Shown: piece after piece, positions 5,525-9,520 of the stretch
How positions within the stretch are numbered: the stretch's first letter is position 1
Layout: every line of letters begins with the position of its first letter
Source of the DNA: Candidatus Omnitrophota bacterium
GTDB taxonomy: Bacteria; Omnitrophota; Gorgyraeia; Zapsychrales; Fredricksoniimonadaceae
DNA length: 43,247 nucleotides
Direction: 5' to 3'
Assembly (NCBI GenBank): GCA_903861305.1
Contig: CAIOTT010000036.1
Coordinates: 1-43,247 of the forward strand
Program-made: the position numbers and the translations under genes
Notes under the pieces: model-generated
Told to the model about the DNA's origin: nothing
Databases searched by the model: none
What the model saw: the letters and a program-made list of their open reading frames with translations, nothing else

Positions 5525-5600
5525 TATAGATGGTGGAGGTCGTCACATACAGTTTAGAGGGTGTGTCTTTTGTATATTGGAGATCCACAAGGAGCTGGAT

Positions 5601-8600
5601 ATGAAGAAATTAATATCATTGATCGTTTTGTTCAGTTTTGTGTTGAGCAGTATTGTTCCGCCGCGCGCTTATGCCCAAGCCCTGAATTTGCCTGCACCCG
5701 GCACGATGGTCGCCATGTCGCCGGATTACATGCCGGTCATGATGAAAGGCGTGAAGGTACATCCTGAGAATCCGCTTTTATTGGATTTCATTCTTGACAC
5801 CGGAAAGTCCGGGCTCGCGATCGATGGGTCTGAGTTTAGATCCGAGTCGCAAAAGCTCATCAAGTATTTTTTGGCCTCACTGACGATCAAGGAAGACGAC
5901 CTTTGGGTCAACCTCTCGCCATACGAGAAGGACCGGATGATCCCTGAAGAGTTGGGCAAGACAGAACTTGGGCGTGACATGCTGGTGCAGGACTACGTCC
6001 TTAAGCAGCTCACCGCATCCATGATCTATCCGGAGAAAGAATTAGGTAAAGCTTTCTGGAACAGGGTTTATACCAGGGCGCAAGAAAAGTTTGGCACCTC
6101 GGATATCCCGGTCGACACGTTCAACAAGGTGTGGATCGTGGCGGACAAGGCCAAGGTCTTCGAGCAGAACAATGGGGCTTATGTCGTAGGATCGCATTTG
6201 AAGGTCATGCTGGAATCGGATTACGAAGCCATGTCCCATCAGAAGGGTATGGCGGCGATGGAACCCTCCCCCTCGTGGGGAGGGAATGGGAGGGGGGAGC
6301 AAGAACTCACCAAATAGGTCATCCGCGAGGTCGTTATCCCCGAGATCGAGAAAGAGGTCAATCAAGGCCAGAACTTCGCGCCCTTGCGCCAGATGTTCTA
6401 TACCATGATCCTTGCGTCCTGGTACAAGCTCGCGCTCAAGGACGCGCTTCTCAACCAGGTCTACAGCAATAAAGGGAAGACATCCGGGGTGTTGTCCGAC
6501 GACCCGGCTGTCAAAGAAAAGATCTATGACCAGTATTTGCAGGCGTACAAGAAGGGCGTGTTCAATTATATCAAGGACGATATTGATCTGGTGAGCCAGG
6601 AACCCTTGCCCCGCAAGTATTTCTCAGGTGGAGAAGAGTTCCATATGCTGCCTGGCATCCTTGATCGCTCCCAGAAGACCACCCCCGATGAACGTGCCGC
6701 GATGAAGACAGGCGACCTGGCCATGATAACGATTAATACTGTCAAGAAGGCGGTGGTCGCGGGTCTTATTATTCTTGGGATCGGTGCTTTTACACAGACG
6801 CCGTTCGCGCAGCATTTCTTTGACGTTGGCAGAGATGTAACGCCAATGGAAACTGTGAGCACGGCGAAAGGCGTTGTTTTGCCGTTAGACACCGGGGATA
6901 TTATAGGGAAGGATGCCATCGCAGGGTTTAAAAGTGTGGCGTCCTCTTCTAATGGGTATACGAATTTGGATGGGAGTATTTCCGTAGAATATGACGCCTA
7001 TTATTCGAACAGCACAGGAGATATCGGGATCAGGCTCAAAGGGGATCAGTTTCAGATGGTCAAGCGTTCGGTGAGAACATCTGACGATTTTTCCGGTGAG
7101 TATCGTATTTATAGAAATGCCAAGAGAAAAGAGTTTGTGCTTTTCCTCAAAATGAAAAAGGATGGCGTTTTGATCATTGAACCTGGCAGCCTTAAGGATC
7201 CGTATATACAACAAATGATGAGCAAGACAGACGTGGAACCAATATTGTCTTTAGATACGGGTGACGTTGTCGGAGCCGAGGACATATCAAAATTTAAATA
7301 CATGCCCGCCGGGAACGGGTATCAGAATCCAACAGAGGGTGTTTCTGTAGGATATGATGTTTATTTATCCAAGGATACGAAAGAGGCCGGGATTTTATTC
7401 CATCCTATTGTTAGTGGGAATCAGCCAGGCCAGCCGTAGTTGGTCAAGCGTTCGAGGAAGACGTTTGATGACTATATTCTGGAGTATCGTATCTACAGGA
7501 ATGCTCAAGGGAAAGAGTTTGTGCTGGTGCTCACGCTTAAGAATGATGGCTCTCTGTTCGTGATACCGGGAATGCTCCATGATGAGATAATTCAAAGGAG
7601 GATGGCTCAGGTAGATGCGACCGTGCAATTGTCTTTAGACATCGGGGATGTGGTTGGGACGGATGCCGTCTCGAAATTCAAATACATGCCCGCTGGCAAT
7701 GGATATCAGAATTCAACAGAGGGTGTTTCTGTAGGATATGATGCTTATTTATCCACGGATACGAAAGAGGCCGGGATCTTATTTCATCCTGTTTTCAAAG
7801 GAGATCAGTCAGGCCAGCCGCAGATGATCAAGCGTTCGAGGAAGACGTTCGATGGCTATACCCTGGAGTATCGTATCTATAGAAATGCCCAAGGGAAAGA
7901 GTTTGTGCTGGTATTCACGCTTAAGAATGACGGCTCTCTGTTTATTATACCGGGAATGCTCCATGATGAGGTGATTCAAAAGAGGATCGGTCAGGTAGAC
8001 GCCCCCGCGCAATTGTCTTTAGACACCCGGAACGTGGTCGGAACGGAAGGCGTTTCAAGCTATAAAAAACTGCCGTCCCTTCTTGATGGGTATACAAGTT
8101 CAGATGGGAGTATTTCCGTAAAATACGATGCTTATTATTCCCAGAGCAAGCGAGAGGTCGGTATCCAGTTTAAAGGCGATGAGTGGCAGATGGTCGAGCG
8201 CTCTAGGAAGTCGTTCTTTGGCGGATCGATCCGGGAATATCGTGTTTATAAAAACGCCCGAACAGGGAAAGAGTTTGTTCTTTATATAATGAATATGCAG
8301 GATGGCTACGTTGGTACACTTCCTGATAAGCGTAATGATGTAAAGATGCGCAGGTGGATGGAGGTTGCTATCCCGTTGTCCGACAACATTCTTCAGGACG
8401 CGGGGAAAGGATTAATGGCCGCGCTAGATATGTCTATGACGCAAAAGAATGAGCCCGGCGTGTCACAGGAGTCTCAGGAAGCCGGGAGAGCCCTCTTTAC
8501 CGCATTGCAAGGAAGCGTAACCTATGAACCTAAACAGGATGGCAAGGCCACCGAGGTCACTGTTCACTTCACTGATAGAGTACGAAAGGCTATCAGCGGT

Positions 8601-9443
8601 CTGTGGGCTGTCGCGTATCCAGAACAGTCATTGTCTGATGGTGAGCCCAGCGCAGAAGAGCTCGTCAAGATCAAGGAGATAGCCCAGTCGTTCTTTGCCC
8701 CTCATGAAGTTGAGGTCGCTAAAGACCGGATAAAGGTCGTCTTTCCAGTATCAATACCAGATGTAAAGGAAGGGCTTGATCTGGCGATGAGCAGCGGTGA
8801 TGCGATCAACTTGATGAGTGCGGCGCTGACGATGTATGCCGGCGTTACATCCTTCCAAGCGAAGAACTACAATATGGGTGCGATATTGATCACTTCTTCG
8901 TTGGCGGTCCTTTTGGGTGTCTTTTTGAACACGAAAAGCAAATCAAACCGCAGGTACATAAAGGAGAATCGAGTTATTACTGAGGATGTCCGAGGGACAA
9001 CTATTACTTTACCCCGACCCAAAGTGCCGCCAATAACTGACAGTGAGTGGACCACAATAGAAGCTGATCTTGTGAAAGCCTTGAAGTTGACAGAAGTTCA
9101 TTCAATAATTTATGGTGAGAATGAAACAAGTGTTGTGACGAGAGAACTGTCTAAAGCTGACGCAGAGAAGAAAATCGAGGATATGGCCAGCACGACAGGT
9201 GAGAAAAGGTCACCCCAGGACCTTGGTGGTATCGACCTGAATGCCAGGAACATGGGGCTGGAGGTTGCCAGGGACGGGAAGGGCGTTGACATGAAATTCG
9301 ACCCGGCCATGGTCGCGGAATTCCAGAAAGGTGATTTTACGGGCGTTGAGGGGATCATCCTCAGGATCGTCCCGCTTCAAAGTCCTTTCCAGGCCCTGGG
9401 CATGGAGGCAAGCCCAGCGGGCGATGAGTTGGCAAAAGGCTAG
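5601..9443 (+). CDS. Large secreted repeat protein of an Omnitrophota-type family; single frame interrupted by in-frame TAG at 6315-6317 and 7437-7439 (possible pseudogene or stop readthrough)
   Basis: SD AAGGAG at 5589-5594, ATG 5601, signal peptide MKKLISLIVLFSFVLSSIVPPRAYAQALNLPAPGTMV. ORFs 5577..6317, 6384..7439 and 7440..9443 are all in the same frame; sequence between the first two translates as VIREVVIPEIEKEVNQGQNFAPLRQMF with no frameshift. C-term GGIDLNARNMGLEVARDGKGVDMKFDPAMVAEFQKGDFTGVEGIILRIVPLQSPF. Confidence 0.7.
6264..6299 (+). repeat. GC-rich palindromic element inserted in frame in the 5601 gene (encodes PSPSWGGNGRGE)
   Basis: CCCTCCCC-ctcgt-GGGGAGGG perfect 8-bp stem at 6264-6284 followed by aatgggaggggggag; composition differs sharply from flanking coding DNA. 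Confidence 0.6.
6885..8376 (+). repeat. Four tandem protein repeats of about 120-128 aa (units 6885-7250, 7251-7634, 7635-8018, 8019-~8376)
   Basis: Each unit opens with LDTGD/LDIGD/LDTRN and contains a (Q/W)(Q or TAG)(M/L)(V/I)(K/E)RS ... EYRIYRNA(Q)GKEFVL core; units 2 and 3 are both 384 nt and very similar at nucleotide level. Confidence 0.85.
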
Positions 9444-9476: not shown

Positions 9477-9520
9477 AACCTCCGTTTGGCCTTGATCGGC
9501 CGAGCGGAGGTTTTGTATTT
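9477..9520 (+). terminator. Rho-independent terminator candidate after the 5601 gene
   Basis: AACCTCCG (9477-9484) pairs with CGGAGGTT (9505-9512), inner GGCC/GGCC pairing, T-rich tail ttttgtattt. Confidence 0.75.

Follow-up and report, generated by a model that had tools for sequence, protein, structure and literature searches.

Lone in-frame TAG codons in a redundant family of long secreted-protein genes from an Omnitrophota bacterium: a probable case of very young pseudogenes

In-frame stop codons under purifying selection have been described in bacteria, including sites where TAG and CAG alternate among orthologues, and a published survey argues that a lone in-frame stop with no further sign of decay is a poor marker of a bacterial pseudogene (Belinky et al. 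2021; PMC7918605). The locus described here is like those cases in having lone stops, including TAG for CAG, within an otherwise intact gene of low dN/dS; it differs from them in that its stops are not common to the orthologues of other species and belong to one redundant family in one species. TAG is likewise found inside reading frames in amber-recoded and pyrrolysine TAG-decoding organisms, as here; unlike those organisms, the species studied yielded no CUA tRNA or PylS in its 68%-complete genome, employs TAG as a working terminator, and shows no constant residue at the replaced positions. Within the same phylum, long and poorly annotated ORFs, probably for surface or secreted proteins as in the present case, were described by Seymour et al. 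2023 (PMC10066038), the searched text of which makes no mention of in-frame stops; the ORFs treated in that text exceed 20 kb, whereas the family considered here is set by a conserved N-domain and C-terminal motif and its members are mostly 0.6–4.3 thousand codons long.

We examined a window of 43,247 nucleotides (contig CAIOTT010000036.1) from a metagenome-assembled genome (MAG) of Candidatus Omnitrophota (G000; 1.74 Mb, 74 contigs, 68% complete). An initial annotation of this stretch had joined three ORFs on the forward strand into a single frame of 1280 codons (5601–9443) broken by two TAG codons only, and translation bore this out: the interval 5577–9443 contains exactly two internal stops, TAG at 6315–6317 and TAG at 7437–7439, and there is no frameshift anywhere within 5601–9443. 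The frame starts with ATG at 5601, preceded by a Shine-Dalgarno-like AAGGAG (5589–5594), and opens with a signal-peptide-like segment. There follow a conserved family N-domain (5676–6632), which is cut by the first TAG and whose linker carries a G+C-rich palindrome translated in frame as PSPSWGGNGRG (6264–6296); four divergent tandem repeats of ~372–384 nt each (6879–8300), with the second TAG inside repeat 2; and a conserved family C-terminal motif (GGIDLNARNMGLEV...; 9219–9440) located by motif search. The frame is closed by a terminal TAG (9441–9443), which is kept in the orthologue of a congener, and a little 3' of it lies a terminator-like hairpin (ACCTCCG...CGGAGGTTTT; 9479–9519), recognized from its sequence. 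Pfam searches with the three pieces gave no convincing domain, and Rfam gave no match around the gene.

The N-domain, to which the first 318 codons of the window gene match, occurs in ~57 copies in its genome and was found in 34 genomes of 37 searched; matches to the C-terminal motif were found in 29 of the 37. In the window gene the N-domain stands after the signal peptide, and the C-motif HMM matched residues 596–654 of the third piece, at the end of the frame, where the same motif closes most other copies; in the common layout, a middle part that varies lies between the conserved N-domain and the conserved C-terminal motif. The window gene is a member of a large, redundant family of long secreted Omnitrophota proteins, a family with dozens of copies per genome and without Pfam annotation. 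Homology to ~95 family ORFs continues straight over the first TAG. Taken with the repeat match at the second TAG and the low dN/dS (both described below), this makes the continuity of the frame across the stops more than chance.

Another reading is that of a split gene, in which translation would restart on each piece and two or three working proteins would result. The second piece does have a TTG at 6384 (the initial annotation had an ATG there, incorrectly; past the first stop, no ATG occurs before 6393), and the third opens on a TTG immediately 3' of the second TAG. Such a split gene is nevertheless hardly credible: the first stop falls in the middle of a conserved domain, the downstream pieces would be without a signal peptide, intact members of the family are single frames, and no Shine-Dalgarno sequence is evident ahead of the internal starts, as had been noted earlier for the region right after the first TAG.

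The codons that stood at the two sites were sought in homologues. The nearest named genome, Candidatus Omnitrophica MAG MJ-2014-D6_bin-075 (G004), has a syntenic orthologue, likewise directly upstream of nqrA, which reads ELSKQVIREVV where the window gene reads ELTK*VIREVV, with CAG in place of the first TAG. Gln is also the commonest residue in the family column at this position (40 of 102 rows, 27 of these being CAG). At the second site, repeat 3, which is 85% identical to repeat 2, carries CAG (Gln) at the same place (7821–7823). The window gene is thus disrupted relative to intact homologues at both sites; with CAG in the orthologue and CAG in the adjoining repeat, both stops would most simply be CAG to TAG changes. 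The earlier suggestion to see which residue aligns with each TAG, and whether TAG recurs there, thus gave Gln at both sites and a congener free of TAG at the first.

We then asked how often such stops occur in the family, counting genes bracketed within a single frame by the N-domain on one side and the C-terminal motif on the other. A homology scan of all read-through frames gave many antisense-shadow matches, and only sense-frame cases so bracketed were counted; apparent stops inside the C-motif matches of relatives were set aside, as the natural stop is where this motif ends. Seven of 47 assessable family genes in the window's genome (46, plus the C44 gene, whose short first piece had been listed separately) had lone in-frame stops, eight stops in total, of which seven are TAG and one is TGA; no TAA and no frameshift was found among the 47. 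Besides the window gene with its two TAG codons, a lone TAG in an otherwise intact frame is present in L051 (C51:11460), L118 (C44:2079), L040 (C53:36307), L116 (C64:22215) and L122 (C7:54164), and a lone TGA in L047 (C49:115661). None of 85 bracketed family genes (~109,000 codons) from four congeners had a convincing lone stop, a sample made up of stretches around known copies from which copies cut by stretch or contig ends were left out; the difference in genes with stops (7/47 versus 0/85) gives Fisher p = 5e-4. A TAA and a TGA 12 bases apart in one congener (G002) were tried as lone stops and rejected, since they look like a two-gene junction. Disruptions of other kinds were seen among the congeners' family genes: one or more clear frameshifts, a further probable one, a large internal deletion, and an IS110 insertion considered below.

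The residues replaced at the stops vary (Q, Q, Q, E, W). Five sites have an inferable ancestor, and four of these fit a C:G to T:A change (the two in C36, the window contig, with C44, and C53 from TGG), the fifth having been GAG; the ancestors for C44 and C53 rest on paralogues or on a relative of 48% identity.

A fragmented MAG of 68% completeness could carry assembly, consensus or strain-mixture errors, and lone substitutions without frameshifts would fit errors of the substitution type. Such errors would ignore gene function. Genes outside the family were scanned over 761 kb of the 1,736 kb genome, a sample with 544 called ORFs and 247,000 codons (~72,000 of them in bracketed family genes). 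The coding-potential scan, which detects only stops flanked on either side by 90 codons or more, found no convincing internal stop in the ~175,000 non-family codons, its candidates being junctions and shadows only; where ORFs outside the family adjoin in the same frame, the arrangement resembles a usual junction between genes, with a start codon close by. At the family rate ~8 detectable non-family stops are expected (with detectability set at 40%, our own estimate) versus the 0 seen, P ~4e-4. Clean non-family genes argue against random assembly error, and also against TAG being read as sense throughout the genome; confinement of the stops to one family points to tolerance within that family rather than to errors of sequencing or an altered code. 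Error in the assembly is accordingly very improbable.

TAG is in fact a normal terminator in this genome, ending 10 of 46 family genes and ~14% of called ORFs, the window gene included, and a further in-frame stop follows at the same distance whether a gene ends in TAG, TAA or TGA, backup stops being not enriched. None of the 27 tRNAs in this 68%-complete genome (25 typed by ARAGORN; two truncated ones read by eye as Lys and Leu) has a CUA anticodon, and neither do those typed in G004. The view that genome-wide reassignment of TAG is unlikely stands, and the search for a suppressor tRNA that had been proposed alongside it was negative within that incomplete set. PylS gave no match above the curated cut-off in G000–G004, of which G000 is incomplete. 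RF1 and RF2 are both absent from the incomplete G000 assembly and both present in G001, G003 and G004; nothing follows from their absence, the assembly being incomplete.

Tolerance of amber codons could take a milder form, in which the species reads some TAG through by means of a weak RF1, a suppressor tRNA or a near-cognate one, nonsense in long dispensable genes is cheap and accumulates, and most genes are still TAG-ended. In its favour are the pattern's absence from the four congeners, the low dN/dS past the first TAG, the precedent of in-frame stops under purifying selection (PMC7918605), and the kinds of disruption seen. The TAG share expected of random nonsense, calculated from the codon usage of long frames in the sample, is 0.50–0.57, and seven TAG of eight lone stops is borderline against it (p = 0.03–0.08). 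Zero frameshifts among the 47 genes has P ~0.004 if half of disruptions were frameshifts, the proportion assumed for bacterial pseudogenes. Against such tolerance are the tRNA and PylS results, the use of TAG to end the window gene and other family genes without enriched backup stops, the differing replaced residues, the one TGA, and the lack of stops in non-family genes. The sequence context is of no help to it: no convincing readthrough-stimulating structure was found past either TAG (RNA folding was not unusual after the first and modest after the second, z = -1.9), the TAGs have no following base in common, and no conserved stop or stimulatory context is seen across orthologues, the congener having CAG at the first site. 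We regard this limited readthrough as unlikely. A bolder form of it, in which weak, general TAG readthrough lets amber codons build up earliest in the giant secreted-protein genes, at an early, ambiguous stage of stop-codon reassignment, is quite doubtful; were it true, that stage would be visible only in the longest, most dispensable genes. Both the surplus of TAG and the missing frameshifts would follow, without readthrough, from a bias in base substitution, above all C:G to T:A; as things stand, these two features are an unexplained residue and are unexpected for ordinary pseudogenes.

Selection past the stops was measured, as had been suggested at the outset. Between G000 and G004, dN/dS was 0.07 ahead of the first TAG and 0.06 past it (nqrA, 0.16), and changes on the G000 lineage gave non-synonymous:synonymous ratios of 22:38 before the first TAG and 7:7 after, with no clear difference. 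Past the second TAG, two stretches gave higher dN/dS, 0.40 and 0.23, but owing to domain shuffling their alignment is less certain. The first stop is thus followed by no clear relaxation, and the answer for the second is blurred by its alignment. From this it would seem that either the stops arose recently compared with the divergence of the two species, or the part downstream remains in use; the low dN/dS past the first TAG may only reflect very recent stops.

In G004 the orthologous frame ends in the same N-domain linker and is followed by ~1.2 kb with a transposase gene on the opposite strand (L086:14665–15708), which has both Pfam domains of the IS110/IS1111 transposases (PF01548 and PF02371); past the insert, the orthologue stays open for 1204 codons. 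This IS110 element is present in the congener's orthologue only, and the window is without it. With TAG stops in the window species and an IS110 insertion in G004, the locus has been disrupted independently in two species. In a separate observation, window positions 8486–8730, in the C-terminal half of the gene, are nearly identical in DNA between the two genomes, where the flanking parts of the gene are far more diverged or unalignable; this stretch suggests exchange between, or mosaic assembly of, family genes.

The palindromic G+C-rich element (33 bp) is present in eight copies in the genome with 0–3 mismatches, and a reversed-pattern control gave none. Copies are at window 6264–6296, C53:34510, C41:18174, C49:91924, C56:42433, C55:1025, C67:351 and C65:38203; seven are in the N-domain linker of family genes (the window gene and six others) and one is directly past a family gene. 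Rickettsia palindromic elements are likewise in-frame palindromes inside protein-coding genes; unlike those, the element here is nearly confined to the linker of a single family, and for this reason copying among paralogues may explain its spread. The IS110 insertion in G004 sits in the linker that holds this element in the window.

The best-supported reading, which we consider probable, is that recent nonsense mutations, mostly C:G to T:A, have struck redundant copies of the family, and that the window gene is a very young pseudogene or loss-of-function allele. Two independent recent substitutions, CAG to TAG at each site, would have left a product that is now most likely only a truncated N-terminal fragment of 238 residues; the same kind of event would have occurred in at least six other family copies of the species, and the sister species would have lost the same locus through the IS110 insertion. 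Such losses would be tolerated because dozens of paralogues remain. TAG may prevail in part because CAG, GAG, AAG and TGG, each one step from TAG, are common in family genes. Absence of readthrough and fixation of the stops in the population are presumed in this account, and loss of function is something we infer, since lone stops are poor pseudogene markers by the argument of PMC7918605. Local suppression, a very recent double nonsense event and assembly error had all been put forward to account for the two TAG codons; the double nonsense event now has the best support and assembly error has lost ground, and local suppression is disfavoured by the varied residues, by TAG being a normal terminator, and by a CUA tRNA and PylS not having been found in the incomplete genome, with the surplus of TAG and the missing frameshifts speaking for it.

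For annotation of the window, the three ORFs become one broken family gene, and not three genes or a recoded gene. For the family, stops in 7 of 47 genes that are mostly TAG, with zero frameshifts, versus none in four congeners, provide a clear test case for distinguishing decay from tolerated readthrough.
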